From contig JAPJBO010001108.1 of assembly GCA_030068145.1 (NCBI GenBank), positions 1 to 64,000 on the forward strand: a stretch of 64,000 bases of DNA, given 5' to 3'. Of this stretch, positions 2,914 to 57,207 are shown piece by piece. Made by a program: the position numbers and the translations under genes. This stretch comes from Diplonema papillatum. Its lineage: Eukaryota > Euglenozoa > Diplonemea > Diplonemida > Diplonemidae. The notes below the pieces were generated by a model. The model saw only the letters and a program-made list of their open reading frames with translations, was not told the origin of the DNA and did not search any database. The stretch's first letter is position 1. Each line of letters begins with the position of its first letter.

Positions 2914-5694
2914 TGGGCGACTGAACAACACGCACATCAGTTGGCCCTCAGTGCTCTGTTAGATCGTGTCCGCGACAACGAGTACTGTGTAGTTGCGGGC
3001 GACTTCAACGCTGCACTACAACCCGGCGAAGGCAACGCGAGACATGAGGCGCCAGAAAGCGTGGGACACCGGCGCTCGCCTGAAATGGCGGAGGCATCAA
3101 GATGCCTAGGCGACCTCATGCACGCTAATGATCTCGTGAGTGCGGCGACCATGAGACAACACAGCGCGCGACCAACGTGGAGAAATCGCATGATTGACCA
3201 CGTATGCCTGAAGCTGCGCTACGGCAGCAGTGTGCAGCAAGTGCGCACTTACGAACCTAGCCGGTGGTTCAATACCCTCGTCTCCGATCACAAGATGGTC
3301 GAGGTGACCCTTCGGGTCAGATACGCGGACCCGAGGAGGCCCGCACCCCCAAAGCCCGACTTCGCTAGCGTCGCAAGGAGCGCGCCACTAGAAGCGAAGA
3401 TAGCAGATACTCTCACCCGTGCAGCCACGTATGAGGAGTTCTGCAGTTTGTCACGGTCCCTTGTTGGTGAGCTGCCGCGGCTACCGACACCAGAGCTCGA
3501 GGAAGCCTTGCTGGGACCGCCGGAAGGAGGCAACGCGGACTACAACGCTGCAGCCGCACGCCCTGTAGCCACCTTGCTGCGTTTCTTTGAAGAACATCGG
3601 GGTGACAGCCCCCACGCAGCCTGGAAGGCCCTTTCCTGCCTATGGAAGAGTCGTGCCTGTCTCCCCCCTCTGTCAAAGGGGGAGTACGATGAGCACTTCC
3701 GAGCTCTCCGCAGACAACACGGTGATTGTGAGGACACATCCGCGATACCACGACTAATAGCCAGAAACCTTGACTGGAAGACAGAACCGCCCACGATCTC
3801 TGAAGTTGCGGGTGCCTCTCGTAGGCTTAAGGTCAGCAAGGCGGCCGGTCCGGATGGAGTTCCGAACGCATTCTTGCGCGTCCCTGACGTACAAGAAAAG
3901 GTCACCGAGTTTTGTCGGGAGGCGTACATGCAGGCACCGCCTGCAGAGTGGATGCGGTCTGAGACCCAACCGCTGTACAAGAAAGGCAACCGGCGTGATT
4001 TAGGGAACTACCGCCAAATCACCCTCGCATCGTGCTGCGGGAAGCTGTACAACGCAGTACTGCGAGGGAGGATCCGGCAGGCCCTACGTGACCAAATTGG
4101 GCAAGTTGACAGCGTCCTTCTTCCAACACAGAATGGGGGAAGGCCGGGCAGGGGCACGTCTGAACACGTCCTCTGCCTGAGAAGCGTAGTACAGCAGATC
4201 AGGATGGAAAAGGAAGGCGAAGCTTTTTTAGTGTTCGTAGACTTTTCGACCGCTTTCGACAGCGTTTTCTGGTCCGCATTGGAAAAGCTTCTCGGAGCCT
4301 ACGGTGTACCGGATTCGCTCCGGAGTGCTATCATTAGTACATACCGTGGGGCGACAACACAGGTTCGCACGCCACATGGCCTAACTGAGGCCATCGAGCT
4401 TTGCTCGGGCGTCCTCCAAGGGGACACATTGGCCCCAACGCTGTTCAACCTCGTGATCGATGCGATCATGAGAGAAGTTGAGGGGGTGGACATTCCGAAC
4501 GCGGGCGTGTGCTTTGGTCCTACGTGTGGACGATGGCATATCCGCCTAAAGCACCTTGAATTTGTCGATGACATTGTTCTAATAGCCCGATCCGCAGCAG
4601 CAGCCAGAGTGCTCCTGCACAAGCTCACTGCGGCAGCCGCGAAGTATGGCCTGAAGGTCAACTACGGCGTAGGCAAGACAGAGGTAGTCGTCCTGGGTTC
4701 GCCAGTTGTACGTACCGTAACGCGTCCAGATGGGGCCTCCCTCCGTGAGGTTCCGGACTACAAATACCTCGGCTCCATGCTCGTGGACAGCAGAGCGGAT
4801 TTCCTACGGAACAAGTCTTTGGCCTGGGTAGCAGTACACAGACTGAAGTCTGTTTGGCGGTCCACGATTAGGCTCGACCTAAAGGTTTTGTTTTTCAAAA
4901 CGCTCGTGGTTCCCGTCTTTCTGTCAGGCGCCGAAACTTGGATCGTTGGCACTTCCCTGCTTCCTGAGATCTCTGGAGCATACACTTGTCTAGTTCGGTT
5001 TGTTCGAGGCATTAAGGTCTACAGTCGCGAAACGCGCTGTAGCAACAATGACCTCTTTGCGGATCAGTTCCCGAGGATCGAAGTTGAGTTGCAGAGAAAG
5101 CGGCTCCGCTTCGCTGGGCACTGCCTGAGGGCGGACCAGCCCGCGTCGAGCGTGCTTCTTGCAACGACGCGTCGAAAGAAGAAACGCGGTCGACCTCCGC
5201 TTTCTTATCTCGATGTGCTCCAACGCGACCTCGGCATGTCGAACACTGAGGAGATCCGGGAGCTGATGGCAGACAGGGTAGCGTGGGAGGTCCAGCGGGT
5301 GGTGGAGGCCACCAGGCAGAGAACCGTGCGGCCGCCGCGGAAGACGCGGAAAGGCATGAAGGCACGTGGGACCGGATCCGGACGACCCCGGAAGCGCGTG
5401 ATCTCGCAGGCTGCGCGGCGCATGCGCAAGGTTAATGCGCTGAAGTACATCGACCAACTCATTTGTGCGGCACCGACCTGCCACGTTCAAGCTTGCTCCG
5501 ACCACTGCACCCTCTGCCGACACTCGCTAGCCGTCGATGCTCATGACGGCAGCCCCATCCTGAAGTGCAAATACTGCCGACGCGTCACTGCTGCTGTGTG
5601 CGCTCGGATTGGCGCCGCTCAAGCGGCCACATTATGTCACTCGTTTGTTTGTAAAGACTGCTCCGTTCTTCTCCCCGACTTGTTCCCGGATTAG
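2914..5694 (+). CDS. LINE endonuclease/reverse transcriptase ORF, 5'-truncated
   Basis: The frame is open from the left TSD to TAG at 5692-5694 and lacks a natural start, because the N-terminal part of the APE-type endonuclease is missing. What remains, numbered from base 2941, is: endonuclease motifs AGDFNAAL (about residue 19) and SDHKMVEV (about 115); RT finger motifs AAGPDGVPNAF (about 301) and GNYRQITLAS; catalytic FVDFSTAFD (432), GVLQGDTLAP (490) and FVDD (541, a variant of F/YADD); thumb motifs KYLGSML and SGAETW; then RLRFAGHCLR and RGRPPLSYLDVLQRDL, typical of RTE-like elements. The C-terminus has a Cys/His-rich region from about 842 (CHVQAC, CTLC, CKYC, CKDC) that may bind nucleic acid. 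The protein copies element RNA into DNA at a nicked target. Confidence 0.92.
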   Translation, partial: WATEQHAHQLALSALLDRVRDNEYCVVAGDFNAALQPGEGNARHEAPESVGHRRSPEMAEASRCLGDLMHANDLVSAATMRQHSARPTWRNRMIDHVCLKLRYGSSVQQVRTYEPSRWFNTLVSDHKMVEVTLRVRYADPRRPAPPKPDFASVARSAPLEAKIADTLTRAATYEEFCSLSRSLVGELPRLPTPELEEALLGPPEGGNADYNAAAARPVATLLRFFEEHRGDSPHAAWKALSCLWKSRACLPPLSKGEYDEHFRALRRQHGDCEDTSAIPRLIARNLDWKTEPPTISEVAGASRRLKVSKAAGPDGVPNAFLRVPDVQEKVTEFCREAYMQAPPAEWMRSETQPLYKKGNRRDLGNYRQITLASCCGKLYNAVLRGRIRQALRDQIGQVDSVLLPTQNGGRPGRGTSEHVLCLRSVVQQIRMEKEGEAFLVFVDFSTAFDSVFWSALEKLLGAYGVPDSLRSAIISTYRGATTQVRTPHGLTEAIELCSGVLQGDTLAPTLFNLVIDAIMREVEGVDIPNAGVCFGPTCGRWHIRLKHLEFVDDIVLIARSAAAARVLLHKLTAAAAKYGLKVNYGVGKTEVVVLGSPVVRTVTRPDGASLREVPDYKYLGSMLVDSRADFLRNKSLAWVAVHRLKSVWRSTIRLDLKVLFFKTLVVPVFLSGAETWIVGTSLLPEISGAYTCLVRFVRGIKVYSRETRCSNNDLFADQFPRIEVELQRKRLRFAGHCLRADQPASSVLLATTRRKKKRGRPPLSYLDVLQRDLGMSNTEEIRELMADRVAWEVQRVVEATRQRTVRPPRKTRKGMKARGTGSGRPRKRVISQAARRMRKVNALKYIDQLICAAPTCHVQACSDHCTLCRHSLAVDAHDGSPILKCKYCRRVTAAVCARIGAAQAATLCHSFVCKDCSVLLPDLFPD

Positions 5695-12022: not shown

Positions 12023-13141
12023 ATGGGACCCAAGGACATGAGAACGCTGCACGGGGAGTGCTTCAAGCTGGCAAACGGGAAGATGTACCCGGCTGTCGGT
12101 TTGGGAACGTGGAAGTCGCCCGAAGGCAAGACCGGCGAGGCGGTGAAGGCAGCGATTCGTGCTGGGTACCGTCTGATCGATACCGCGAACGACTACAACA
12201 ACGAGCACGAGATCGGAGCTGCCATCAAGGAGCTTTTGGACGCTGGCGAGGTCAAGAGAGAGGACCTCACCATCCAGTGCAAGCTGTGGAACTCGAACCA
12301 CAGGCCGGAGCACGTGGTCACGGACTTGAAGAAGACCCTGCAGGACCTGCAGCTCGACTACGTTGACTGCTTCGTGATCCACTGGCCCCAGGCCGTGCCG
12401 GCTCACCCCGAGGGTAAGAAGGCATCGGTCAGAATCTCTGGTGCCGCCCCTGGGCCGTACGATGAGGAGAGACCGGAAGGTACTATGTGGATGTTCCCGA
12501 TGGGCAAGGACGGATACTACACCAGCGACGACAAGTCGCACTACGTCGAGACATACCACGCGATGGAAGACCTCGTTGACCAGGGACTCGTGAGGAGCTT
12601 GGGTATCTCGAACTTCAACAAGCAGCAGACCCGGGAGATTGTTCAGAACGTGAAGAAGCACCCCGTGTGCATTGCGCAGAACGAGATCCACCCGTACTTC
12701 CAGCAGAAGGACTACGTCGACTTCTGCCACTTCAACAACATTGTTGTGCAGGCGTTCTCGCCGCTTGGCTCCGGTGACAGACCCGCGTGCTTCACCAAGG
12801 ACAGCGACCCGACGCCTGTGTTGGAGAACGAGACGATCCTGGCCATCGCGAAGAAGCACAACAAGACTACCGCCCAGGTGGTCGTCAGGTGGCACACCCA
12901 GAGGGGTGTCTCGTCGGTGCCGAAGTCGATCACGCCGAGCCGTATCGCGGCCAACCGCGACATGTTCGACTTCGCCTTGGACGCTGAGGACATGCAGAAC
13001 ATCGCGGACATGAACGTCGGCTGGCAGTTCCTCCTGTGGGAAGCCACCGCCATGCACCCCGACTACCCGTTCAAGGAGTCCCTCCCGTACGGCTTCACCG
13101 TCCCGAAGGCCCCTGAGGGGACTGGTACCGCCGGCAAGTAA
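12023..13141 (+). CDS. Aldo-keto reductase copy 2 (complete)
   Basis: This intact intronless frame of 372 residues is an NAD(P)H-dependent aldo-keto reductase, a cytosolic (alpha/beta)8-barrel oxidoreductase. The catalytic tetrad is visible: Asp53 (GYRLIDTA), Tyr58 (NDYNNE), Lys87 (CKLWN) and His120 (VIHWP). AKR signature 1 spans residues 48-65, and the cofactor signature VPKSITPSR lies near the C-terminus. At 372 residues it is longer than the usual 310-330; the extra length is mostly an insertion after His120 (about residues 125-165, ending TSDDKSHYVETYHAME) and a short tail. The ATG is chosen because homology starts there and because it is shared with copy 3. No signal peptide is seen. The coding sequence appears identical to copy 3 at 23483. 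Substrate (sugar, aldehyde or other) is undetermined. Confidence 0.96.
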   Translation: MGPKDMRTLHGECFKLANGKMYPAVGLGTWKSPEGKTGEAVKAAIRAGYRLIDTANDYNNEHEIGAAIKELLDAGEVKREDLTIQCKLWNSNHRPEHVVTDLKKTLQDLQLDYVDCFVIHWPQAVPAHPEGKKASVRISGAAPGPYDEERPEGTMWMFPMGKDGYYTSDDKSHYVETYHAMEDLVDQGLVRSLGISNFNKQQTREIVQNVKKHPVCIAQNEIHPYFQQKDYVDFCHFNNIVVQAFSPLGSGDRPACFTKDSDPTPVLENETILAIAKKHNKTTAQVVVRWHTQRGVSSVPKSITPSRIAANRDMFDFALDAEDMQNIADMNVGWQFLLWEATAMHPDYPFKESLPYGFTVPKAPEGTGTAGK

Positions 13142-23190: not shown

Positions 23191-23482
23191 TCGTGAATCC
23201 ACGTGGATCCACGTCCCGAACCCTGTGCTGGAATTGCAGCTGCAGGAAGGACTGAAGGCGCAGACTTGGTACTCTCTGAGTTCAAACAATCTAGCGCTGT
23301 GCTCTCGGCTGCCGAGCTTTTCAGGTCAGCCAGCATTCATCCGCGCGCACCTGAGCACCTATTCAGCCCATCAAGGACAACCGTCACCCATTAACGAGCA
23401 TTGTTGGGCGGTCTCTCATGTTTTTCAACCAATCAAAGATCAATCTGTCCAGGTGATTGGAAAGAAAGCAAAGGGCAAAAAG

Positions 23483-24601
23483 ATGGGACCCAAGGACATG
23501 AGAACGCTGCACGGGGAGTGCTTCAAGCTGGCAAACGGGAAGATGTACCCGGCTGTCGGTTTGGGAACGTGGAAGTCGCCCGAAGGCAAGACCGGCGAGG
23601 CGGTGAAGGCAGCGATTCGTGCTGGGTACCGTCTGATCGATACCGCGAACGACTACAACAACGAGCACGAGATCGGAGCTGCCATCAAGGAGCTTTTGGA
23701 CGCTGGCGAGGTCAAGAGAGAGGACCTCACCATCCAGTGCAAGCTGTGGAACTCGAACCACAGGCCGGAGCACGTGGTCACGGACTTGAAGAAGACCCTG
23801 CAGGACCTGCAGCTCGACTACGTTGACTGCTTCGTGATCCACTGGCCCCAGGCCGTGCCGGCTCACCCCGAGGGTAAGAAGGCATCGGTCAGAATCTCTG
23901 GTGCCGCCCCTGGGCCGTACGATGAGGAGAGACCGGAAGGTACTATGTGGATGTTCCCGATGGGCAAGGACGGATACTACACCAGCGACGACAAGTCGCA
24001 CTACGTCGAGACATACCACGCGATGGAAGACCTCGTTGACCAGGGACTCGTGAGGAGCTTGGGTATCTCGAACTTCAACAAGCAGCAGACCCGGGAGATT
24101 GTTCAGAACGTGAAGAAGCACCCCGTGTGCATTGCGCAGAACGAGATCCACCCGTACTTCCAGCAGAAGGACTACGTCGACTTCTGCCACTTCAACAACA
24201 TTGTTGTGCAGGCGTTCTCGCCGCTTGGCTCCGGTGACAGACCCGCGTGCTTCACCAAGGACAGCGACCCGACGCCTGTGTTGGAGAACGAGACGATCCT
24301 GGCCATCGCGAAGAAGCACAACAAGACTACCGCCCAGGTGGTCGTCAGGTGGCACACCCAGAGGGGTGTCTCGTCGGTGCCGAAGTCGATCACGCCGAGC
24401 CGTATCGCGGCCAACCGCGACATGTTCGACTTCGCCTTGGACGCTGAGGACATGCAGAACATCGCGGACATGAACGTCGGCTGGCAGTTCCTCCTGTGGG
24501 AAGCCACCGCCATGCACCCCGACTACCCGTTCAAGGAGTCCCTCCCGTACGGCTTCACCGTCCCGAAGGCCCCTGAGGGGACTGGTACCGCCGGCAAGTA
24601 A
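23483..24601 (+). CDS. Aldo-keto reductase copy 3 (complete)
   Basis: The 372-residue product is the same as that of copy 2, with tetrad Asp53, Tyr58, Lys87, His120. By line-by-line reading the 1119 coding bases look identical at a constant offset of 11460, whereas copy 1 at the window start has diverged. Identity continues about 35 bases into the 3' region, then a C-run differs; upstream only the last 40 bases are similar. The frame is open further upstream (to 23225), but that extension is not shared with copy 2, so the conserved ATG at 23483 is preferred. Identity of coding but not flanking sequence suggests recent duplication or gene conversion. Confidence 0.95.
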   Translation: MGPKDMRTLHGECFKLANGKMYPAVGLGTWKSPEGKTGEAVKAAIRAGYRLIDTANDYNNEHEIGAAIKELLDAGEVKREDLTIQCKLWNSNHRPEHVVTDLKKTLQDLQLDYVDCFVIHWPQAVPAHPEGKKASVRISGAAPGPYDEERPEGTMWMFPMGKDGYYTSDDKSHYVETYHAMEDLVDQGLVRSLGISNFNKQQTREIVQNVKKHPVCIAQNEIHPYFQQKDYVDFCHFNNIVVQAFSPLGSGDRPACFTKDSDPTPVLENETILAIAKKHNKTTAQVVVRWHTQRGVSSVPKSITPSRIAANRDMFDFALDAEDMQNIADMNVGWQFLLWEATAMHPDYPFKESLPYGFTVPKAPEGTGTAGK

Positions 24602-31262: not shown

Positions 31263-31860
31263 CTTCAACAAAACTTGTAAGACGCGGGGAGCCCAAGAAC
31301 ACTCCCTAACCTGGTGGGATCTTGGTGTCGGTCACAAATTGTTTCGAACCTGACTTGCCAAAGCAAGCAAGTAAAGTGCATGCATGCCCCCCCCCAAAAC
31401 CCACCCAGTACGTATTAGCTTTAAAGAAACCCATTCGACGAAGGTCACCCCGGAGACTCTAAAATCCCGGATTCTCAAGCGAACTATAACTCTAAAACTA
31501 CGCACTTCTTTCGTCTTTTATATCAATATAGCGAGAGTAAGACAACTCCATGGCACCGTAACGTCCAGAAAATCCGTGGCAAATAAAGGAAACTCGAAAT
31601 ACCGCCCGTAAGAGGCTCATGTGCCAATGCGGTAGCAGTCAGGGCCAGTGCAGTCACCGGCCGGTCGAATTGACAAAAAAAAATATTGCTCTCGGATTGA
31701 CATTCGACCGGTCAAGGCGGTCGAATGTGGACACTGGTCGAATTCGACCAGCGCCCGTGTTGATTCGACCCATAGGATAATACAGGGGGTCTTTTGCGCA
31801 CCTCAAATGCGCAAAAAAAAAAAGAGAAAAAGTCCTTAGAGGACTAACACAATTCGTTTA
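31263..31860. other. Intronic spacer with family M copy
   Basis: 31398-31505 is a good family M copy (CAGTACGTATTAGCTT, GAAGGTCACCCCGGAGACTC), followed to about 31610 by sequence resembling the exon 2 downstream region (AACGTCCAGAAAATCCGTGG). 31660-31765 holds inverted GACCGGTCGAATT-like pieces. No gene is seen. Confidence 0.45.
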
Positions 31861-34800
31861 CCGTAAGCGGGTTTAATATGAAACGTGTATAGTACGAAAC
31901 GGTTTTAATACGAAACGTGTTAATTAAGAACCACCCCGGACCTGAAGCTATGAAACATTAACACGTTTCGTATTAAAAACTGCACTTCCATAGGGGTTTT
32001 GAAGGGGTTTGTACTTAGAGTAAACTGGGGCTCGACAATAAAAAAAAGGATGCAGGAAAATTGACAGAAAATTTGAACCAGTCAAAAAAATGCACCGATT
32101 TCTTCGCCCGCGTCAGCCCTTCACCCCATGCGAAGCAGATTCGACAATCTTTGCCCGCTCAGCACAACAGGTAGCAGGTGATGCGGTTGCAAAGGAAGTC
32201 GCGAAGGAGTTGCCGACAAAGAAAACAACGAGAGCGACGTGGAACGCTGACGAGAAAGAACGCATTGCTGAGATTGTTGCAGAAAAGGGGGTGCGAGACA
32301 CTGTCAAGTGGTGGAACAGTCCTCTCCAAGGACATACGAAACAGCTCAACCAAACCATGGCGTCTCGAGCCTTTTCCGAATACAAAGAAGCAATACAAGA
32401 GCGCGTAGCAAAGCGGAAGATGGGGCTGCATGTTGAGGAAAGCGAGAGCCATTTCCGGGAAGTCAAACGAGGGAGGAAGTGCACACTGTCACCCACAGAA
32501 GAAAACAAGGTGCTCAGCATCATCCGCTCTGCTAGGTCATCAGGTGGCGCTGTGACGGCACAAACCGTGTCAGCAACAGCTAGAGGCATGGTGAAAGCTA
32601 GTGATGAAAGCGAGCGCATTCACGACGCCACCACGCTGAACAAGGAGTGGGCGCGTGCATGGATGCGACGGTTGGGCTGGTCCATGAGAGCTGCAACAAC
32701 AGCAGTGGCCACCACAACGCGACCCTTCCTGGAAGCTCGTGCAGAATTCGTTGCAGAAGTACAGAGTGCAAGGAAGCTCCACGACATCCCCTTAGAAAGG
32801 GTAGTAAACGCCGACCACACACTGTTGCAACTCCTGCCAGCACCCAAGAAGACCTACGCGCCGGTGGGCAGCAAGCGAGTGGCCCTAACAAACCTGAACG
32901 ACAAACGGTCGATCACAGGTCTGTTTGCGGCCTTTGCAACAGGGGAGCTGCTACCCCCGCAGTTGATCTACGGCGGGAAAACCAGCAGGGTTCTTCCACC
33001 GGAGGCAAAAAGACCAGACGGGTGGTCTTTTGTCGCCAATCCTAACAGATGGGCAAACGAACAAACCACGAAGGTGTGGGTAAATGACGTGCTGCTGCCG
33101 GCGATGAACACACGGAGAGGAGAGACAGAGTGGGGCCTCCTTATCCTCGATCGTTTCTCTGCCCAGCACACACAAAGTATCAAGGAACTACTTGTGCACA
33201 ATCGCATCGCAACAGTCTGCATTCCGGCTGGCTGGACAGGAAGGTTGCAGCCGTTGGATGTTGGTCTAAACGGTGTTCTGAAGCGGAGCTTGCGGGACGA
33301 GTACTCAACTTGGTACAGCGACAGTGTGCTCAAGTTGATGAAACAAGCAAATGCAAAGAACGCGAAGAACCTGATGAAGAACAAAAAATACAAGAAAGAC
33401 AAGAAGCATAAGAAGGCTACAAAAGACGTGGAGAGTGTTAACGACGGTGACGCTGCTGAGGACATCCAACGTCTTCAAAGTGTATCCGTTGTCCCCACAC
33501 CCGTGCTCTTTCGTGAAGTCGCGCACTCAAAGACGAAGCACAGTGTCATCCTCTACGACAGTCTCGGGGAGCGTAGCAGTATGACGGTCTCGTTGTCCGA
33601 AGCAGCAGGGGCAGCTGGCGACCTGCACTTCGCTCCGGAATGGTGGAGACAGCAAGAGGCGCACGCTTGTGGGTGGTTCGCCTATCAAAGCATCTGGCTG
33701 GCTGCCAGCGGAAAGTGCGTTCAGGAGGCCAGCGATAAACCAACGCATGAAACAGCTAAGCAACTGCTCAGCAAGTGCACAGAAGCCGATCTCGCTGCAT
33801 TAAGCGACACCAACGTCACAAGGACTCGTGCGACAATTGTAGAATTGATAGCCGAATTTGCGAAGACCCCCGCGTCGTCTGAATTTGAAGAAAAACATCA
33901 TCTTGATGTATTAGTCGCGCTCGTTCTCAATGAAGTAGTGCTGCGTCTATTTGGGGTGAAAGTGCGCTTGCACGAAACGTGCACCTTCTCTGCTGCTGAA
34001 CACTTGAAGTCCGGGTGCCGGCAAAGCTCACTGGTTGTCTTGTTCGACGGGGCTCATTTTGCTTCCCTTGTCACCGTGTCTGCTGAAGAACACACGTCTG
34101 TTGTGGAAGGTGAGATGCTGAAGATGATGGCGCGTCTCGACCTCCGCGCAAAATCTCTGCGTAGACGACATCTGAAGTGGCTAAAGACGGCGTTGTCGAA
34201 AGTGAAACCCGAGAGCATCCGGGCGAGTTTCGTGGTGACCGGGTTGAGTGACGCAAATTTACTGGAAGAGAAAGTTTCCGATCCAACAGGAGATGGAGCC
34301 GACCAAGGTTTCGTTGAAGACAGCCCCCAGGCCACCGGTTGCGGGGACAACGTTCTCGCCGAACTCCTTCGCAATTTCAATGAATGTCTCGTACTGAGTG
34401 AATGCGCAGATTGCATCAACGATTCTGACTTCGCTGATTTTGACCAAGAGCTTGAAGAACTGGCAAACGATGAATGCGTTGCTGTGGAGGTGGATGCGGT
34501 TCATGCTAGTCTTGGGGCTGGCGAGCACGAGAAGAAGCTGGATGGCAATCACCTGGAGAGGCTTTACTCCTTCTTTAAGGACAACTCCGCCTTTGCTTGC
34601 GCTGCCCTTCCATACGACCGGCTTACCCTGTCATCACTGACGCGTGCCCGCCTAATGAACACCTTCGTAAACACTAGCGTGTCAGGAACTCGTGGTTGGC
34701 ACTGGATGCTTGTAACAACCGACCGGTCGCTCCGAAGATGCGTTGTATCTTGCTCGCTTTCTGACTTTTGCGGAAGCAAGATAGTCAGCCACCTTGCAAC

Positions 34801-35226
34801 GGTCTTTTCCGCCGACACCGACTCTTGGTTCATTGAGACGGACGCTCGAGGATGTCAACAAGACGATTGGAGCTGCGGTTACCATTCCTTGTTTGCGGCG
34901 CTGCAGTTCACAGACTGCATCCCAGAGCCGTTGGTGATCCCGCCCACGCCTGTCGTCTTCATTCACAAGTGCCAGAACGCTCTGCAATTGCTGTCATCGT
35001 GATGTCTTGTCGCTAATACTCTGACCGCGGTACGTTTTTCCTGCTCAAAGGCTCGATACACCAAAGGTTGTCGGGAACCAAAATGGGGGATCATCATGGG
35101 GTTTTCAAATTTCACTAAGTACGTCAGACCCCTTGTTTTTAGTACGAAACGTGGTAATTAAGAAACACTTTGGCCAAAAAAGTAGCTAAGAAACATTTAC
35201 ACGTTTCGTATTAAACCCGCTTACGG
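31861..35226 (+). mobile_element. TA-flanked DNA transposon encoding transposase-peptidase fusion
   Basis: The element has 29-bp terminal inverted repeats with one mismatch (CCGTAAGCGGGTTTAATA start), flanked by TA at 31859-31860 and 35227-35228, the signature of the Tc1/mariner/pogo superfamily. Subterminal copies of ACGAAACG and GTTTCGTATTA occur three times at the left and twice at the right and are candidate transposase-binding sites. It carries one uninterrupted 970-codon gene with all three catalytic Asp, so it may be recently active. It lies in the large GT31 intron. TCCTTAGAGG occurs just outside both ends. Confidence 0.92.
32090..35002 (+). CDS. pogo/Tigger-like DDD transposase fused to cysteine-peptidase-like modules
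   Basis: The 970-residue protein starts at ATG 32090. N-terminal: two helix-turn-helix-like stretches (about 48-105 and 130-215, the latter CENP-B-like, WARAWMRRLGWSMR). Centre: DDE_1-type catalytic core with Asp242 (VVNADHTLLQLLP), Asp354 (LLILDRFSAQHT) and Asp390 (LQPLDVGLN), a DD35D spacing. Residues about 414-448 are Lys-rich, a likely nuclear signal. C-terminal half: a first module with Cys527 (WRQQEAHACGWFAYQS) and His656 (FDGAHFASLV), in OTU/papain-like order; and a second with His871 (GWHWMLVTTD) and QQ-x4-Cys929 (GCQQDDWSCGYHSL), the order and Gln spacing of Ulp1-type C48 SUMO peptidases. Transposase assignment is strong; peptidase assignments rest on motifs only. The fusion would let the transposase act on ubiquitin or SUMO conjugates, but that is inference. 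Confidence 0.85.
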   Translation: MHRFLRPRQPFTPCEADSTIFARSAQQVAGDAVAKEVAKELPTKKTTRATWNADEKERIAEIVAEKGVRDTVKWWNSPLQGHTKQLNQTMASRAFSEYKEAIQERVAKRKMGLHVEESESHFREVKRGRKCTLSPTEENKVLSIIRSARSSGGAVTAQTVSATARGMVKASDESERIHDATTLNKEWARAWMRRLGWSMRAATTAVATTTRPFLEARAEFVAEVQSARKLHDIPLERVVNADHTLLQLLPAPKKTYAPVGSKRVALTNLNDKRSITGLFAAFATGELLPPQLIYGGKTSRVLPPEAKRPDGWSFVANPNRWANEQTTKVWVNDVLLPAMNTRRGETEWGLLILDRFSAQHTQSIKELLVHNRIATVCIPAGWTGRLQPLDVGLNGVLKRSLRDEYSTWYSDSVLKLMKQANAKNAKNLMKNKKYKKDKKHKKATKDVESVNDGDAAEDIQRLQSVSVVPTPVLFREVAHSKTKHSVILYDSLGERSSMTVSLSEAAGAAGDLHFAPEWWRQQEAHACGWFAYQSIWLAASGKCVQEASDKPTHETAKQLLSKCTEADLAALSDTNVTRTRATIVELIAEFAKTPASSEFEEKHHLDVLVALVLNEVVLRLFGVKVRLHETCTFSAAEHLKSGCRQSSLVVLFDGAHFASLVTVSAEEHTSVVEGEMLKMMARLDLRAKSLRRRHLKWLKTALSKVKPESIRASFVVTGLSDANLLEEKVSDPTGDGADQGFVEDSPQATGCGDNVLAELLRNFNECLVLSECADCINDSDFADFDQELEELANDECVAVEVDAVHASLGAGEHEKKLDGNHLERLYSFFKDNSAFACAALPYDRLTLSSLTRARLMNTFVNTSVSGTRGWHWMLVTTDRSLRRCVVSCSLSDFCGSKIVSHLATVFSADTDSWFIETDARGCQQDDWSCGYHSLFAALQFTDCIPEPLVIPPTPVVFIHKCQNALQLLSS

Positions 35227-35228
35227 TA

Positions 35229-35288: not shown

Positions 35289-35424
35289 GTCGTATACGAT
35301 CGCAGATCTTAGAAGATTAATATATCCGACGAATACCTAACACTCGTTACAGGTTAAATAACCCCGTCGCTATCCCGAAAACATCGTAACTTCACCCCTC
35401 GCTTGCCCACCCACCCTTGCCCCC
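35289..35424 (+). repeat. Split direct repeat A1
   Basis: 136 bp from GTCGTATACGATCGCAG to CCACCCTTGCCCCC, matching A2 at 38513-38648 with about one difference near the start (CGATC/AGATC). Confidence 0.9.
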
Positions 35425-35435
35425 GCTTGGAAAAC

Positions 35436-35869
35436 ATGCAAAAGACAGTGACGGAAGAATACCTGTCCAGCCTGAAGCTGGTAGAGCTGCGAGCGGTCGC
35501 CGCGGAGCTCGGCGTCGAGGTCAGGGGCCTGCGGTCCAAGGCGGAAGTCATGCTATACAGAACACCGTCGCCGGCCTCATCCGGGACGCCATCACACGGA
35601 GGTGGAACCCGAGGGCGCTGGCGGCGGCTGAGCAGCGCCAGAAGTGGGCCGACTTTCCGTCGGAGATTGTCGAGCTCAGGGAGGAGTACGACAAGGAGGT
35701 CAAAAAGACGAAACCCCGCTTCCGGTCCAGGGGCCCCGAGTCTCGTGTACGGCAGGGCGGCAAGGGGTACCGCGGGAGCAGCGCCCACCGAGACGTTCCT
35801 TTTCGAGGTGACAGCCGAAAAGGCGGAAAGAAAGGGGGGTGGCCCTCCGGTAAGGGAAATCGGTGGTGA
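35436..35869 (+). pseudogene. gag-like N-terminal ORF with SAP-like motif (frameshifted)
   Basis: From ATG 35436 the product has a SAP-like helix pair (EYLSSLKLVELRAVAAELGV, then RSKAEV), a DNA/RNA-binding motif. Coding character then moves to another frame (RDAITRRWNPRALAAAEQRQ, then FPSEIVELREEYDKEVKKTK) and ends in a Gly/Arg/Lys-rich tract before TGA near 35869. The frame switch around 35570 indicates a frameshift, or programmed shifting. The position suits a gag-like protein; no zinc knuckle is visible. Confidence 0.5.
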
Positions 35870-36022
35870 AGGTTACCCCTTCGCAAGCGACGTCCCGCTG
35901 CGTCCCCGAAGCCGCAGCGCCCCACGTCCGGGACGGCCGCTGAGAAGGTTTGGAGACGTGACGCGGGAGCGAATCACCGACGCCCTCCACCGCATCTACA
36001 GCGCGTCGTACGCGGAAGCGAC

Positions 36023-36757
36023 GTGAGAAACATGCGGTACTCGGCCTCCAAGTGGGCCAGGTTCGTTGCGCAGGCCCACCTGCAGAGTCACCCGCACGCG
36101 GATCAGCTCCTGGCGTTCATCGGGTGGTGCCACGCCGAGGGGCTGAAGCCCTCGTCGATCCTCACGGAAGTGGCCAACGTGCGGGCGACTCTTCGGCTGG
36201 AAGGAGTTGTGCTCAACGACCACCGCCTCACGATGGCTTTGAGGGGTCTCGCCAAGCTCAAAACCGGAGAGGTGCGGCAAGCGAGGCCGATATCGAAGGA
36301 GACGATGTATCGGACGGTGGACGTGCTGACGACGGTCGACCCCCAGGCCGCTGTGGTTCTCGCGGTCGCGTGGCTGACGGCGTCGAGAGTGGGAGATGTG
36401 AGGAGACAGCGCGTAGGCTCGATGTCGTGCACAGCGGAAGGCGTTCTCGAGGTCAAATGGACCGACAGGAAAGACTGGCGAAACGTCGGTATCGTGACGC
36501 AAGTCTGGACGGGGAGGCTGCAGCCGCTCATAGCTTCCTACCTATTTCGAAGGCCGACGGACGAGTCCCTAGGCGTGTCAGGACGACTGCCCAGTACGCG
36601 GCACTTCTGCCGCGGGGCCACACGGCGCACTCCATCCGGAGGGGAGCCGCACGACACGCCCTCACGGCCGCCGACCCCGAGTCGGTCCGGACCCTGACCC
36701 TCCACGCGACCCTGATGGGCCTGATCCGCTACGCCCCCAACTGCCACGTCCGAACGC
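36023..36757 (+). pseudogene. Tyrosine recombinase, frameshifted
   Basis: The first frame gives a core-binding region (SASKWARFVAQAHLQSHP, then DQLLAFIGWCHAEGLKPSS) and the catalytic Arg in WLTASRVGDVRR. At about 36545 the coding frame shifts; the continuation has the HxxR box GHTAHSIRRGAARHAL, and then LTLHATLMGLIRY, where the His and Tyr stand in the usual positions. All catalytic residues (R, HxxR, H, Y) are therefore present but split over two frames. It would cut and rejoin a circular DNA intermediate during integration. Confidence 0.8.
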
Positions 36758-36837
36758 AACTCCTTCTTCTCGATGACACTGCCGTGAAGCCGTCGCTGAG
36801 CAATGCCGTCTTGCTCTGGGATTTGAACGCGAGGAAG

Positions 36838-37640
36838 AGCACGACACACGTGCCTGCGCCACCGACGGCGAGGATCTCCCAAGCGCCACCGCCGCTGTTG
36901 GACTTTTTGCGCGCAGACGAGATAGCGAGAAGCGCTGGCGGTCACGCGTGGTTGGAGGCCTCCAGATGGATTCGTGACCCCGGGGTTTTCTACGCCAACT
37001 ACGACTGTTTCGAAGGGCGGCGGCTGCTGGAGCCGCTCTCGAGGCTTCACCCCAGCCATGCAGCAGATGTGGCTACGTCTACGATCACGGGCCGTGTTCC
37101 GAGGAATGCCCCCATCGTTGAGATGCGGGTTTTTACGGTCGCACTGATATGCTGGCCGAAGGCGCTGAACGAGCACCCGACCCGCGATCCGAGCCCCGCG
37201 ACGATTTTGCCCTCGCGAGAGGAGGTATGGGAGACGATACGCCCGTCCACCATGGGCATCGAAGTTGACGCTGTGAGCTTCTTCCACGCGTTTCCGATGC
37301 ACCCCTCGATATCGATGGCTTTTGGCATGCGGCTTCCAAGGCACGGAAAACGGGTACTGAAGGTGATGCCCATGGGCTGGGACAAATCGATGGGAGTTGC
37401 GACGACTCTGGCCGATCTGCTGGCGCAGGCGGTCAAGCAGAGGTGCCCGGCGGGACGCGTTACACCCTGGGTCGACAATTTCTTCCTGTCGGCTCCGGAT
37501 TCCCGCACGATGCGGTCCACTTGGGAGGCGTGGAAGGAAGCATCGGGTTACATCGGTCTGAAGACGAAAGACGAGAAGTACACCCCGCGATCGCGCGTGA
37601 CGTGGCTGGGACTAGACGTCAAACCTTGCAGAAAATCTTG
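36838..37640 (+). pseudogene. Reverse transcriptase, WVDN active-site variant
   Basis: The same frame as the recombinase C-terminus continues through an RT with the DIRS-type motifs IEVDAVSFFHAFPMHP (first catalytic Asp at 37267-37269), PMGWDKSMGVATTL and PWVDNFFLSA. At the normally (Y/F/L/V)xDD position the second Asp is Asn (codons at 37471-37476), which would impair or alter polymerase activity unless compensated. WLGLDVK marks the connection end; the frame then shifts and thumb sequence continues near 37700 (YRILGSVNFYMYFLGVDAWD). Confidence 0.8.
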
Positions 37641-37949
37641 TTCGGGCGCCCCCGAAGGTAGTCGGCGCACTCGGCGACGCGGTTTCAGAGGCAGAACGCA
37701 TGTGCACGTACCGAGGAGCCTACCGGATCTTGGGGTCCGTGAATTTTTACATGTACTTCCTGGGGGTTGACGCCTGGGACTTCCCAACCCTCTCGCGTTT
37801 TCAATCGCGTTTCGGCAGGCTTCTAGCCGAACAACCAGCACTCTGGGACACAGTTTGCCTTCTTTGGCCCTCGTTCTTGTCCGCGCTTCGAGCCGTCACG
37901 CAAAGAATGCCGGTGGCAATCTGTACAGAAAAAGGCGGGAGGGCCCACG

Positions 37950-40463: not shown

Positions 40464-41183
40464 GTGAAGCAAGTCAAAATTGCAGAGGCCGATGTGCAGG
40501 ACGCAACCCTCGAGTCGATGCACGTCAATTTCTACGTCAGCCTTCACAACAAACTCTCGATCTCCCAAAGCCTGAGGCAGCTTGACGCAGATGTAAGTCG
40601 GGGGATCGCCATGCATCCGCAGTACAGGAACGAAGAGCACATCAAACAAATGACCTACCTTTGGGCACGAATTCTTCGATTCCAGTTGCATGTGCGTCTG
40701 GCTCCAGTTTCTTTCTTCGTGATCAGCACTGACGGTGCTACGCTTTCCCTTACAAAAAAACAAGTGATCGAAGTACGTATTCGATTCTACGAGCTTTCGA
40801 AGTACACTGAGGTGTTCGTAGGGTTGGTTGCCATTCCGCGTGGCGATCGTGAGGACGGTGAATGCATCCATCGCCTGGTGTGCGCGGCTCTGCGCAAAGT
40901 TGGGGTTGCACAGAACCAACTGCTCGGTATAGTGACTGACGGGGCAAGCGCCCTAACAGGAGCAAACAACGGGTTGTTTGGGAGACTTGTTGCTGATGCG
41001 CACAAAGGGGCCCGGCTGTTCAAGACGTGGGATTTTGCGCATTACCTCCAAACGTGCTTGAAGGTTATCACTGAAGCCAAGGTGTTCAAGTCCATTGCTG
41101 CGATGGTGGCAGCGATCGATTCGTTTTACGCAGCTTCATCACTGCTATGCCGGGACATACACGACGCACTTGTCATGCACAAT
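40464..41183 (+). pseudogene. hAT-like transposase, N-terminal half
   Basis: Codons run in frame from 40464 without a proper start (a stop lies just upstream), so the true N-terminus is missing or lies in another exon. RNase H-like segments are visible: FFVISTDGATLS with a first candidate Asp, VFVGLVAIPRGDREDG, and LLGIVTDGASALTGANNGLF with a second candidate Asp, followed by KTWDFAHYLQTCLK at the position of the hAT HC/Y region. The frame is broken after RDIHDALV by the foldback at 41184, and the continuation is at 44735. Family assignment is tentative. Confidence 0.6.
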
Positions 41184-41433
41184 CACTTGTTATATAACAA
41201 GTGACCTAACAAGTGAAAATGTATAACAAGTGCCACTTGTTATATAACAAGTGATCACTTGTTATATAACAAGTGATCACTTGTTATATAACAAGTGTTT
41301 GCTTGTTATATAACAAGTGATTGCTTGTTATATAACAAGTGATTGCTTGTTATAACAAGTGTTTGGTTGCAATTTCATAAGGAACCTGGGGTTTGCACCT
41401 ACCTACGAGAGAAAATCAGTGATCTGCAAGACA
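41184..41433 (+). repeat. Left arm: clustered 20-bp palindromes
   Basis: Exact copies of CACTTGTTATATAACAAGTG occur at 41184, 41234, 41256 and 41278, with variants beginning GCTTG continuing to about 41362. Confidence 0.9.
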
Positions 41434-43096: not shown

Positions 43097-44439
43097 AGGG
43101 ACAGCGGATTATTACCCGGGCGGGCCAACTGCCCACTACTTTCGCCAAAATTTTGGTGGGTGGGTCCCCCCCCCCCTCTGGTGGGAATATTTTTTCCCCA
43201 AAACTGCATGAAGATTTTCCGACGGAAACCCACTGTTGCATCAATGTAATGGCCCAAATCTGACCGAAAACCGCTGTTACATCAATGTAATGGGCCAAAT
43301 CTGGCGGAAAACCACTGTTACATCACTGTAATGGGCCGAATTTCACAGAAAACCACTGTTACATCAATGTAATGGCCCAAATTTGACGGAAAACCACTGT
43401 TACATCAATGTAATGGCCCAAATCTGACCGAAAACCACTGTTACATCGATGTAATGGGCAGAATTTGACGGAAAACCACTGTTACATCAATGTAATGGCC
43501 CAAATCTGACCGAAAACCACTGTTACATCAATGTAATGGGCAGAATTTGACCGAAAACCACTGTTACATCAATGTAATGGCCCAAATTTGACGGAAAACC
43601 ACTGTTACATCGATGTAATGGGCAGAATCTGACGGAAAACTTGGCCCATTACATTGATGTAACAGTGGTTTTCCGTCAGATTCTGCCCATTACATCGATG
43701 TAACAGTGGTTTTCCGTCAGATTCTGCCCATTACATCGATGTAACAGTGGTTTTCCGTCAAATTTGGGCCATTACATCGATGTAACAGTGGTTTTCCGTC
43801 AAATTTGGGCCATTACATTGATGTAACAATGGGTTTCCGTCAAATTCTGCCCATTACATCGATGTAACAGTGGTTTTCCGTCAAATTTGGGCCATTACAT
43901 TGATGTAACAGTGGCTTTCCGTCAAATTTGGGCCATTACATTGATGTAACAGTGGTTTTCCGTCAAATTCTGCCCATTACATCGATGTAACAGTGGTTTT
44001 CCGTCAGATTCTGCCCATTACATCGATGTAACAGTGGATTTCGGTCAAATTTGGCCCATTACATTGATGTAACAGTGGTTTTCCGTCAAATTCTGCCCGT
44101 TACATTGATGTAATGGCCCAAGTTTGGGCCATTACGTTGATGTTTTTTGGGGAGGGGCAGTGCAACTTGGACCTGATAGAGCCGTACCGTTCGGCCGGGG
44201 GGCTTTGCCCCCCGAACCCCCCCTTATTTCGACTTTCCAGAACAAACCAAACCCGTACATTTCAGCTGTGTATGGCGGTGTCGGAAGCCAAGAAGGCAGG
44301 TGGTGAAATTGGAAACTCAAAAAAAAATTCCCACGGGCTCGGGAGATTTGGGGGTGGGTGGGTCCCCCCCCCCCAAGAAACATTTTCCCCCCCCTTTGGG
44401 CGGGCAGTTGGCCCGCCCGGGTAGTAATCCGGCGTCCCT
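43097..44439. mobile_element. TIR element G carrying a giant palindromic satellite
   Basis: Terminal inverted repeats of about 38 bp (AGGGACAGCGGATTATTACC at 43097 and the matching complement ending 44439) contain GGGCGGGCCAACTGCCC. Between them lie the 41-bp repeat palindrome (43231-44112) and non-coding flanks with C-runs. No transposase is seen. It is nested inside the 41184-44715 foldback, itself nested in the hAT-like gene. Confidence 0.75.
43231..44112. repeat. Inverted array of 41-bp units, each with a 14-bp palindrome
   Basis: About ten direct units (starts at 43231, 43272, 43313, 43354, 43395 and so on) are followed, from about 43643, by about eleven units in reverse orientation. 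Each unit holds TTACATCGATGTAA or TTACATCAATGTAA. The whole could extrude as a hairpin of roughly 400 bp. Confidence 0.92.
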
Positions 44440-44469: not shown

Positions 44470-44715
44470 GTGTCTTGCAGATCACGTGACTTTCTCTCGT
44501 AGGTAGGTACAAACCCCAGGTTCCTCATGAAATTGCAACCAAACACTTGTTATAACAAGCAATCACTTGTTATATAACAAGCAATCACTTGTTATATAAC
44601 AAGTGATCACTTGTTATATAACAAGTGATCACTTGTTATATAACAAGTGGCACTTGTTATATAACAAGTGACCACTTGTTACATCACTTGTTAGAAATAT
44701 AACTAGTTATGTCCC
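44470..44715 (-). repeat. Right arm: clustered 20-bp palindromes
   Basis: Mirror of the left arm, with the order TTTCTCTCGTAGGTAGGTAC, then GAAATTGCAACCAAACAC, then repeated palindromes. Confidence 0.9.
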
Positions 44716-44734: not shown

Positions 44735-46024
44735 GTGCGTCGTGTAGAGGAGTTTGCTGCAGAAAACCCGTCGATAAGCGCTGCTGTCCCTGGTCAGCCT
44801 CGCACTGCTTCTGTTCTTCGCCCAAAGCAGGGGCACGTCATCCGGTGGCTTCCAAAGTGGAAAAATACCTTTTCTCGAGTGCAGCGTATGAACAAGCTGT
44901 GGATCGCACATTTGGAAAGTGATCGCCGTGCCTTCAAGACCTCAAAGGGTGGTGACAAACAGCAAAAACGGGCGTACAAGAGAAAACTCAGCCAGGCAAA
45001 GCGACCGACAAGGGGCGGCCCGTCTAAACTTGTGCACAAGTTCAAGCAACCGCTCGTACAGAAGCAGCTGCTGTACTTTGACCAGCTGTTTACCGCGATC
45101 TCGCCGGTGAGCCGCACAGCGCAGTCGACAAGCACTTCTGTCGTCCACATTGAAGCCGAGCTACGCTCTGCAACAGAGGTGCTCCTGCAAATCGAGGCAC
45201 CATCGGGTTTGCAGTCTCTCCATAAGCTTGTGCAGGAAGCTTTTGACACCATGTTGCAGTTCAACGATGACCAACGGGCTATTCTGAAGATCTTGAAGTT
45301 TTTCTACTTCGATCTAAGCAACATGAGCACTGCCGAGATTGCTGCGTACGGCAACAATGAGCTTCAGGAACTGCAGGGGCCAATCCTTTCACGACTGGGT
45401 GCTGAAGGGATCGACCTCAAACAGGCCTGGTGCAGTGCCAAGGCCCTTGCGGCAGGGATGAGCAGTGGCTCCAGCTTGCGCTGCGTGACATGCAGTCTTC
45501 GCGAGACGGACATAGAGCACAACGTTTTTCTTGCTGATGTGCTTGAGGGAATAGCTCTACTTGGCAGTGTGTCGTGCTGTTCTATTGAATCTCACTTTGC
45601 AGCGGTACGGCAGCGGCTTGGACTGTCTCGCACAAAGCTTCGTATCACACTTCTTGAGGCTGAGCTGTTTGTGCATGAACTAGGACCAAGCCCCGCTACA
45701 TGCCGCGAGTTTGTTCAGACTGGAGTGCGCTCTTTCTTTGGTGATCGAAAGAGGAGAGCCCCAGGAGGTGGCCGCAAGAGGCTAGGACCAAAGCCCACTC
45801 GGTTACAGGTAATTGAAGAGGGCCTTCGAAGTCAGTGCCTCCTGCGCGAATACGAGGACGAAGAAGACAGCGAGGAAGATGAGGAGTGCGAGGAAGATGA
45901 AGAAGATGAAGAGTGCGAAGAAGATGAAGAGGAGTCTGAAAACGAGGACCTTGAAGAAGATGAAGAAAGCGAGGAAACAGAAGACAGCCCAAAGAATGTC
46001 AGAAAAAGAGCGCGCCGAAAATAG
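44735..46024 (+). pseudogene. hAT-like transposase, C-terminal half
   Basis: The 429-codon frame continues the protein interrupted at 41183. It has a basic stretch (about residues 65-105, KGGDKQQKRAYKRKLSQAK), a helical region, and CCSIESHFAAVRQRLGLSRT, then ITLLEAELFVHEL, at the position where hAT proteins have their dimerisation segment (weak match). It ends with FFGDRKRRAPGGGRKRLGPK and a long acidic tail of Glu/Asp (residues about 365-415), then a basic end (RKRARRK) and TAG 46022-46024. Being cut from its N-terminal half, it is inactive here. Confidence 0.6.
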
Positions 46025-54528: not shown

Positions 54529-57207
54529 GGTGGGGGAGAGGTACAATTCAGTGGAGAAGACGTCTTTTCTGGTGGAGAAGAAGTCTTTTCTGGTGGGGGA
54601 GAGGTCCTTTTGTGTGGGGGAGAGGTCCTTTTGGGTGGGGGAGAGGTCCTTTTGGGTGGGGGAGAGGTCCTTTTGTGTGGGGGAGAGGTCCTTTTGTGTG
54701 GGGGAGAGGTCCTTTTGTGTGGGGGAGAGGTCCTTTTGTGTGGGGGAGAGGTCCTTTTGTGTGGGGGAGAGGTCCTTTTGTGTGGGGGAGAGGTCCTTCT
54801 GGGTGGGGGAGAGGTCCTTCTGTGTGGGGGAGAGGTCCTTTTGTGTGGGGGAGAGGTCCTTTTGTGTGGGGGAGAGGTCCTTTTGTGTGGGGGAGAGGTC
54901 CTTCTGGGTGGGGGAGAGGTCCTTTTGTGTGGGGGAGAGGTCCTTTTGTGTGGGGGAGAGGTCCTTTTGGGTGGGGGAGAGGTCCTTTTGTGTGGGGGAG
55001 AGGTCCTTTTGAGTGGGGGAGAGGTCCTTTTGAGTGGGGGAGAGGTCCTTTTGTGTGGGGGAGAGGTCCTTTTGTGTGGGGGAGAGGTCCTTTTGTGTGG
55101 GGGAGAGGTCCTTTTGAGTGGGGGAGAGGTCCTTTTGTGTGGGGGAGAGGTCCTTTTGTGTGGGGGAGAGGTCCTTTTGAGTGGGGGAGAGGTCCTTTTG
55201 TGTGGGGGAGAGGTCCTTTTGTGTGGGGGAGAGGTCCTTTTGTGTGGGGGAGAGGTCCTTTTGTGTGGGGGAGAGGTCCTTTTGGGTGGGGGAGAGGTCC
55301 TTTTGTGTGGGGGAGAGGTCCTTCTGAGTGGGGGAGAGGTCCTTCTGTGTGGGGGAGAGGTCCTTTTGGGTGGGGGAGAGGTCCTTTCTGGGTGGGGGAG
55401 AGGTCCTTTTGTGTGGGGGAGAGGTCCTTTTGGGTGGGGGAGAGGTCCTTTTGTGTGGGGGAGAGGTCCTTTTGTGTGGGGGAGAGGTCCTTTTGTGTGG
55501 GGGAGAGGTCCTTTTGTGTGGGGGAGAGGTCCTTCTGTGTGGGGGAGAGGTCCTTTTGTGTGGGGGAGAGGTCCTTTTGTGTGGGGGAGAGGTCCTTCTG
55601 TGTGGGGGAGAGGTCCTTTTGGGTGGGGGAGAGGTCCTTTTGTGTGGGGGAGAGGTCCTTTTGTGTGGGGGAGAGGTCCTTGTGAGTGGGGGAGAGGTCC
55701 TTTTGAGTGGGGGAGAGGTCCTTTTGTGTGGGGGAGAGGTCCTTTTGTGTGGGGGAGAGGTCCTTCTGAGTGGGGGAGAGGTCCTTTTGTGTGGGGGAGA
55801 GGTCCTTTTGTGTGGGGGAGAGGTCCTTTCGTGTGGGGGAGAGGTCCTTTTGAGTGGGGGAGAGGTCCTTTTGTGTGGGGGAGAGGTCCTTTTGTGTGGG
55901 GGAGAGGTCCTTTTGTGTGGGGGAGAGGTCCTTTTGTGTGGGGGAGAGGTCCTTTTGAGTGGGGGAGAGGTCCTTTTGTGTGGGGGAGAGGTCCTTTTGT
56001 GTGGGGGAGAGGTCCTTTGGTGTGGGGGAGAGGTCCTTTTCTGTGTGGGGGAGAGGTCCTTTCTGAGTGGGGGAGAGGTCCTTCTTGGTGGGGGAGAGGT
56101 CCTTTTGGGTGGGGGAGAGGTCCTTCTGGTGGGGGAGAGGTCCTTTTGTGTGGGGGAGAGGTCCTTTTGGGTGGGGGAGAGGTCCTTTTGTGTGGGGGAG
56201 AGGTCCTTTTGGTGGGGGAGAGGTCCTTTTGTGTGGGGGAGAGGTCCTTTTGTGTGGGGGAGAGGTCCTTCTGGGTGGGGGAGAGGTCCTTTTGTGTGGG
56301 GGAGAGGTCCTTTTGTGTGGGGGAGAGGTCCTTCTGTGTGGGGGAGAGGTCCTTTTGGGTGGGGGAGAGGTCCTTTTGTGTGGGGGAGAGGTCCTTCTGA
56401 GTGGGGGAGAGGTCCTTTTGTGTGGGGGAGAGGTCCTTTTGAGTGGGGGAGAGGTCCTTTTGTGTGGGGGAGAGGTCCTTTTGTGTGGGGGAGAGTCCTT
56501 TTGGGTGGGGGAGAGGTCCTTTTGTGTGGGGGAGAGGTCCTTTTGAGTGGGGGAGAGGTCCTTTTGTGTGGGGGAGAGGTCCTTTTGTGTGGGGGAGAGG
56601 TCCTTTGGGTGGGGGAGAGGTCCTTCTGTGTGGGGGAGAGGTCCTTTGGGTGGGGGAGAGGTCTTTTGTGGTGGGGGAGAGGTCCTTTTGTGTGGGGGAG
56701 AGGTCCTTTTGGGTGGGGGAGAGGTCCTTTTGGGTGGGGGAGAGGTCCTTTTGTGTGGGGGAGAGGTCCTTTTGTGTGGGGGAGAGGTCCTTCTGTGTGG
56801 GGGAGAGGTCCTTTTGTGTGGGGGAGAGGTCCTTTTGTGTGGGGGAGAGGTCCTTCTGGGTGGGGGAGAGGTCCTTTTGTGTGGGGGAGAGGTCCTTTTG
56901 TGTGGGGGAGAGGTCCTTTTGGGTGGGGGAGAGGTCCTTTTGGGTGGGGGAGAGGTCCTTCTGGGGGGGAGAGGTCCTTTTGTGTGGGGGAGAGGTCCTT
57001 TTGAGTGGGGGAGAGGTCTTTCTGGGTGGGGGAGAGGTCCTTTTGTGTGGGGGAGAGGTCCTTTTGGGTGGGGGAGAGGTCCTTTTGGGTGGGGGAGAGG
57101 TCCTTCTGGGGGGGAGAGGTCCTTCTGTGTGGGGGGGTCCTTTTGAGTGGGGGAGAGGTCTTTCTGGGTGGGGGAGAGGTCCTTCTGTGTGGGGGAGAGG
57201 TCCTTCT
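54529..57207 (+). repeat. 21-bp satellite, about 127 units
   Basis: Unit TGTGGGGGAGAGGTCCTTTTG with few variant positions (TGTG/GGTG/AGTG and TTTT/TTCT). The first units are degenerate (GTGGAGAAGACGTCTTTTC), and small deletions shift phase near 56050-56640 and 56960-57140. The period is seven codons, so all three forward frames are long open frames (CVGERSF, VWGRGPF, CGGEVLL repeats). The G-rich strand could form quadruplexes. It lies within the inferred GT31 intron; coding use is not supported. Confidence 0.95.

Follow-up and report, generated by a model that had tools for sequence, protein, structure and literature searches.

The pogo superfamily of DNA transposons comprises, in the available text of a survey (PMC7386202), the families Fot, Passer, Tigger, pogoR, Lemi and Mover, with elements of 1.2-5.2 kb, proteins of 300-977 amino acids and terminal inverted repeats (TIRs) of at most 40 bp. 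Peptidases directed at ubiquitin or SUMO occur in unrelated transposon classes (Ginger1, Mutator-like elements and Helitrons), and the benefit they bring is, in the passages available, proposed and not shown. Participation in transposition or repair has been suggested for the OTU and Ulp1 domains of Ginger1 (PMC2836005). For the VTD domain of Helitrons, sometimes accompanied by OTU, protection of the transposition proteins from degradation has been proposed; VTD activity is reported in the same text, which describes transposon OTU domains as not yet assayed (PMC9741609). Here we analyse a 64,000-nucleotide stretch of the Diplonema papillatum genome (contig JAPJBO010001108.1, positions 1-64,000; hereafter the window), which contains at 31861-35226, on the forward strand, a pogo-like element whose single open frame joins a transposase to two modules resembling cysteine peptidases. 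The explanation that best accounts for the data jointly, to which we assign a probability of roughly two in three, is a recent pogo-type element with an OTU-like insert in its catalytic domain and an altered Ulp1-like segment at its C-terminus.

The element is 3,366 bp long, beginning with CCGTAAGCGG and ending with CCGCTTACGG. Comparison of the two ends identified 29-bp TIRs, the 5' one at 31861-31889 on the forward strand and the 3' one at 35198-35226 on the reverse strand, which pair with one mismatch; the best pairing among 100 shuffles of the end stretches was 20 of 29. The TA target-site duplication is present on the left (31859-31860) and on the right (35227-35228). Subterminal palindromes are built from variants of a repeated motif, TAATACGAAACGTGT, four on the 5' side and two on the 3' side. 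The 5' palindrome (31903-31978) has 22-bp arms at 31903-31924 and 31957-31978, and the segment 31859-31990, treated as a folded single strand, gave a z of -3.95; the 3' palindrome (35137-35215) is its direct-repeat counterpart (91-94% over 32-bp stretches). From their sequence, these palindromes are candidate binding sites for the transposase. The open frame of 970 codons (32090-35002, forward strand, as are all protein features below) encodes the transposase and both modules. An earlier interpretation of the letters by themselves, referred to here as the sequence-only reading, had described an apparently intact pogo-like element of this length, with the same TIRs and TA duplication, a single 970-codon frame, a DD35D triad, and the residues Cys527, His656, His871 and Gln923-Gln924-x4-Cys929. 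Each of these was recovered at base level, the residues at the positions it had given, and intactness is supported by the TIRs, the TA flanks and the preservation of the frame among copies.

Copies of the element were sought in the genome (271 Mb, 2,910 contigs), where the sequence-only reading had suggested looking for them. The 970-residue protein gave at least 48 matches with 47 of 918 candidates scored, and 16 of these had the identical full-length score, with 100% identity and no stop codon. Analysis of a set of 47 copies, consisting of 46 others with their flanks and the element in the window, showed DNA identity of about 99-100% over the larger aligned pieces. The 970-codon frame was whole in at least 21 of the 47, and 14, including the one in the window, were identical in every base. 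Both flanks were TA in all 27 copies with both ends, and TA adjoined every one of the 37 visible 3' ends and 36 of the 37 visible 5' ends, the sole exception being a copy whose left flank ends in TAG (L030). The dozens of near-identical copies lie mostly at different sites: there were 44 distinct flank pairs, with one site common to L018, L021 and L022 and another to L050 and L051. Comparison of the rejoined flanks of 25 copies with the available sequences revealed empty sites with a single TA for three of them, each within a repeat: L023 contains the site of L042 (92% over 172 bp), L001 the site of L024 (94% over 156 bp) and L006 the site of L038 (88% over 157 bp). A relative of the L038 site within the window (60379-60214; 89% over 168 bp) has TG in place of TA, and the joined flank of L032 gave no clean empty site, its matches ending near the junction. 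These data show that the burst of copies is young and that transposition at TA is recent.

The youth of the burst makes it very probable that the fused 970-codon frame is the form that transposes, and its presence in full in at least 21 of the 47 places the 3' half within the transposase frame; an origin of that half as a separate inserted gene, which the sequence-only reading had set against its own proposal, therefore fails for the full copies, in which transposase and C-terminal half are continuous. Two copies at different sites (L054 and L055) have the same internal deletion, of element bases 2158-2533, so that the deleted form has probably transposed as well.

The catalytic core (residues 205-445; 32702-33424) matched Pfam DDE_1 (PF03184) with an E-value of 1.2e-16, the only Pfam model above its cut-off. 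The triad is formed by Asp242 (32813-32815), Asp354 (33149-33151) and Asp390 (33257-33259), with 35 residues between the last two, which falls within the DD(29-59)D range of pogo transposases. An alignment with six relatives showed no variation at any of the three, and in two wider alignments each was kept by 90% or more of the rows. The AlphaFold2 model showed a predicted DDE fold, with an RNase H-like arrangement of the mariner type and a structural match to Mos1 extending to residue 722. Upstream, residues 135-199 (32492-32686) matched HTH_Tnp_Tc5 weakly (13.8 bits, E 0.059, under the 22.2-bit cut-off) and are a candidate DNA-binding region. Searches for relatives of the transposase retrieved 12 and then 32 proteins, each from about 7,990 scored candidates, and neither Ulp1 (PF02902) nor OTU (PF02338) was listed for any of them, so these sets contained no second fusion. 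Among viral contigs, nine pattern matches were found and none was confirmed.

Part of the transposase appears to resume downstream of the first module. The short segment at the C-terminus of the relatives, in which DL, MK, W, P, I, NGF and GI are conserved, is placed by one alignment (A3) on residues 683-723 (34136-34258), LDLRAKSLRRRHLKWLKTALSKVKPESIRASFVVTGLSDAN. A profile of this tail segment matched residues 674-722, colinear with the preceding match at 386-423; its score on residues 424-970 was 5.8 bits, equalled by 1 of 5,000 shuffles. A whole-protein profile scored 1.7 bits on residues 451-970, equalled by 10 of 2,000 shuffles. The end of the Mos1 match in the model agrees with a tail at 683-723. 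Together, the profiles and the model make it likely that the OTU-like module is inserted inside the catalytic domain. The sequence-only reading had placed two modules after the transposase; their fusion in frame stands, and the position of the first is probably internal.

Evidence for the nature of that first module (about residues 451-680; 33440-34129) comes from a profile of A20 and OTUD7B (Cezanne), which scored 10.9 bits at residues 641-669, a score equalled by none of 2,000 shuffles; on the three remaining stretches of the protein the same profile gave no match or -2 bits. The matched region is the His motif, here CRQSSLVVLFDGAHFASLVTV, containing His656 (34055-34057), the putative catalytic His that had been named beforehand. 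This is also the one region where likeness to A20 and OTUD7B is detectable. The putative nucleophile is Cys527 (33668-33670), where the protein reads Ala-His-Ala-Cys-Gly-Trp-Phe-Ala vs Asp-Gly-Asn-Cys-Leu-Met-His-Ala in A20, keeping the Cys and, at the fourth residue beyond it, the Ala, and lacking the Asp-Gly-Asn that precedes the Cys. Residues 451-680 are accordingly best described as OTU-like, and not as a member of the OTU family, with the closest apparent likeness to OTUD7B and A20 at the His656 motif.

The second module (residues 831-970; 34580-34999) contains a chain of motifs, His871-Trp followed by Gln923-x5-Cys929-Gly (His871 at 34700-34702, Gln923 at 34856-34858, Cys929 at 34874-34876), which has the order seen in SENP1, ULP1 and SENP8, with 58 residues from His to Cys vs 61-70 in those enzymes. 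The chain was reached by 50 of 200,000 shuffles of residues 801-970, a frequency to be read with the fact that the pattern was picked after looking.

Several results weigh against the explanation that we prefer, some of them given with the alternatives below. The placement of the insert is contradicted by a larger alignment (A4), which sets the tail of the relatives at about residues 420-470 and not at 683-723, and the structural model is not fully independent support, because it was built from A3; we retained the A3 placement because of the profile tests. The OTU match spans the His motif alone, the Cys527 side lacking the usual Asp-Gly-Asn, and pairwise comparison of A20 with residues 451-700 was no more than suggestive (equalled by 7 of 500 shuffles with BLOSUM62 and 23 of 500 with BLOSUM45). 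Differences among the copies (33 replacement, 16 silent and 3 stop substitutions, nearly all private to a single copy) look neutral; the copies are too young for this test to be informative on selection acting on the modules.

A first alternative is that the modules are real folds that are no longer enzymes, that is, pseudo-proteases that bind ubiquitin, SUMO or other proteins and recruit the transposase to chromatin. It has the altered residues in its favour: the position of the catalytic Asp in the Ulp1-like module (His+17) is occupied by Cys888 (34751-34753), the Ser after it being shared with the enzymes, Ser928 stands in place of the Asp that precedes the catalytic Cys of SENP1, ULP1 and SENP8, and Asp-Gly-Asn is absent before the OTU Cys. 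A working Ulp1 protease at the C-terminus is on these grounds doubtful. Both nucleophile Cys residues, both His residues and the Gln of the Ulp1-type set are nevertheless present, and the available text of PMC10318531 describes OTU-like enzymes that have a Cys-His dyad. We consider loss of activity in both modules somewhat unlikely.

A second alternative is an ordinary pogo-like transposon whose C-terminal extension is long and evolves fast, the Cys, His and Gln patterns in it being coincidental and no peptidase fold existing. Consistent with this, searches of Pfam, NCBIfam and protein databases returned no match for either module: no OTU family model appeared among the Pfam matches down to E 10, and Pfam had none for 831-970. 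Comparison of residues 480-970 with 5.8 billion proteins found none at E up to 1 among 7,996 candidates scored, so no deep alignment of the peptidase parts was obtained. The profile of SENP1, ULP1 and SENP8 was not significant on the terminal module (-1.3 bits, equalled by 144 of 2,000 shuffles), nor was pairwise comparison of SENP1 with residues 831-970 (83 of 500 and 168 of 500 shuffles). Neither module received a usable fold from AlphaFold2: the predicted local distance difference test (pLDDT) score in the full model was below 50 for nearly all of residues 449-673 and 723-970, including the whole of 825-970, and residues 484-720 modelled alone from a single sequence had a mean pLDDT of 37. 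Structure comparisons with the full model listed no papain-like, OTU or SENP chain among the 50 matches given by each, a result that is no evidence of absence because the C-terminal half of the model is unreliable.

Against coincidence stand the OTU profile, whose score at a His named in advance was reached by no shuffle of 2,000, and the rarity of the Ulp1-type chain, even allowing for its choice after looking. A search of the PDB (177,635 sequences) also placed OTUD7B first and second of ten entries, with alignment at GCRQSSLVVLFDGAHFASLVTV and His656 as the paired His, at E-values of 0.41 and 0.42 that are not significant alone, the other eight entries being unrelated proteins. We therefore regard a featureless extension as unlikely. 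Of the first module as originally proposed, the peptidase likeness survives as an OTU-like His motif that no OTU library entry matches; of the second, the order of His, Gln, Cys and Gly survives, while profile and Pfam support is absent and the Asp is replaced.

The terminal segment is more widespread in the genome than the element. Residues 801-970 gave at least 154 matches with 150 of 383 candidates scored. About 44 of these fall on copies of the element; the remainder, at other places, are 56-100% identical, and many of them occupy short frames of 132-199 codons. At about 100 places the segment had no transposase among the matches listed beside it, a further point against our explanation. 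Identical scores recur among these places, and a single TGA is common to the members of some groups. At no fewer than three of them (C1383, C544 and C267) the segment is accompanied on the same strand by the 5' end of the element, about 1.36 kb nearer than in the full element, so that at least some short copies are deletion derivatives. Given these derivatives, and given that the single diverged example read (L062) proved to be a decayed, frame-broken copy, capture of the terminal segment from another repeat family, with no role in transposition, is improbable despite its many occurrences elsewhere.

Under the explanation that we prefer, an OTU-like insert together with an altered Ulp1-like tail in a recent pogo-type element, the N-terminal helix-turn-helix would bind the short inverted ends, the RNase H-like DDD active site would cut, and insertion would occur at TA; the cut-and-paste part of this scheme is well supported. 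The OTU-like module (about residues 450-680) would separate the final helices of the fold from the helical region that follows Asp390, and the Ulp1-like segment with its altered active site would have been added at the C-terminus. By analogy with other transposons, the OTU-like module may strip ubiquitin from the transposase, or from chromatin or repair proteins at the transposon ends, which would keep the transpososome from degradation or silencing, and the terminal module may bind or weakly process a ubiquitin-like protein. The sequence-only reading had likewise proposed that deubiquitination or deSUMOylation may help the element to escape host control or to regulate its own transposase. We infer every one of these ubiquitin steps, as we do DNA binding by the helix-turn-helix and the peptidase fold, activity, substrate and benefit of the modules. 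The strongest form of the proposal is one that we advance tentatively, as possible rather than probable: the catalytic domain of a TA-inserting pogo-type transposase would house an active deubiquitinase and thereby couple the cutting of DNA to the removal of ubiquitin within a single fold, and a further module at the tail would be directed at a ubiquitin-like protein.

Further families in the genome bear on this proposal. One relative of the transposase (P0024) revealed them mostly at 27-35% identity to itself, with 84 of 271 candidates scored. Many of them have frames open for 717-824 codons, and in several there are copies that score identically; examples are C234, C445, C758, C339, C33 and C539, with frames of 731-769 codons in C234, C758, C339, C33 and C539. 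Such frames are long enough that they could hold an OTU-sized insert. If the proposal is true, these diverged sister families would mark a built-in deubiquitinase as an established transposon strategy.

Other features of the window include further mobile sequences. Directly downstream of the element, frames at 35403-37770 weakly resemble reverse transcriptases (RVT_1, E 5e-05, below cut-off) and, on visual inspection, contain stretches similar to tyrosine recombinases; they are perhaps part of a DIRS-like retroelement. A 917-codon frame at 2941-5694 encodes a reverse transcriptase (RVT_1, E 6.7e-24) with a weak endonuclease match and represents a non-LTR retrotransposon. Three closely similar intronless aldo-keto reductase frames lie at 3-767, 12023-13141 and 23225-24601 (Pfam on the second only, E 1.5e-53). 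Arrays of 22-bp palindromic tandem repeats and two 41-bp arrays, with complementary units facing, occupy 41222-41361, 43221-44113 and 44536-44681, between long frames at 40464-41204 and 44735-46024 that both lack a Pfam match. About 128 copies of a 21-bp unit, with strong GC skew and open in several frames, fill 54530-57205, and a fragment on the reverse strand at 26104-26218 matches eukaryotic small-subunit rRNA slightly over the gathering threshold (score 51.5, threshold 50).

Compared with described systems, the element is best placed in the pogo branch of IS630-Tc1-mariner, as a recently active and probably autonomous transposon of the cut-and-paste kind. With the pogo superfamily, as the available survey text presents it, it shares the TA duplication, short TIRs, DDE_1 and a DD35D triad like that of Passer and Fot/Fot-like elements, and its total and protein lengths lie within the published ranges (PMC7386202); it differs in its OTU-like insert, its Ulp1-like C-terminus and a helix-turn-helix match below cut-off. 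The word protease does not occur in the available main text of that survey. Open-licence PMC text, searched by titles and the starts of abstracts, yielded no pogo/mariner-type transposase with OTU or Ulp1, and a term search within the available text of PMC12730594 found no passage.

Ginger1 likewise fuses a transposase to an OTU or Ulp1 cysteine-protease domain, but its DDE enzyme is of the Gypsy-integrase type and its modules are C-terminal; in the table available, its families have OTU, Ulp1 (one with PHD) or, in one case, neither, and none has both (PMC2836005). Membership of Ginger1 was considered for the present element and rejected, as its transposase is not Gypsy-integrase-like and DDE_1 is the only Pfam match above cut-off. 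Mutator-like elements are, as cited in PMC2836005, DNA transposons with an Ulp1-type peptidase, but they belong to another transposase superfamily, and the available passages mention no OTU for them. Helitrons and Helentrons can carry two deubiquitinase classes, VTD and OTU, in one transposon protein, but they use a rolling-circle RepHel protein and no DDE transposase, and have VTD instead of Ulp1 (PMC9741609, in the text available). Our data confirm the features that the sequence-only reading described and partly support its interpretation. The element combines a known superfamily with accessory modules of a kind known from other superfamilies, in a layout that we did not find described in open-licence PMC text. 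A compact, single-gene, recently active element with many identical copies and an insert in its catalytic domain would make the benefit of such modules directly testable, and if pogo-type elements join Ginger1, Mutator-like elements and Helitrons, their convergence would look more like a general rule on how DNA transposons meet the ubiquitin system of the host.

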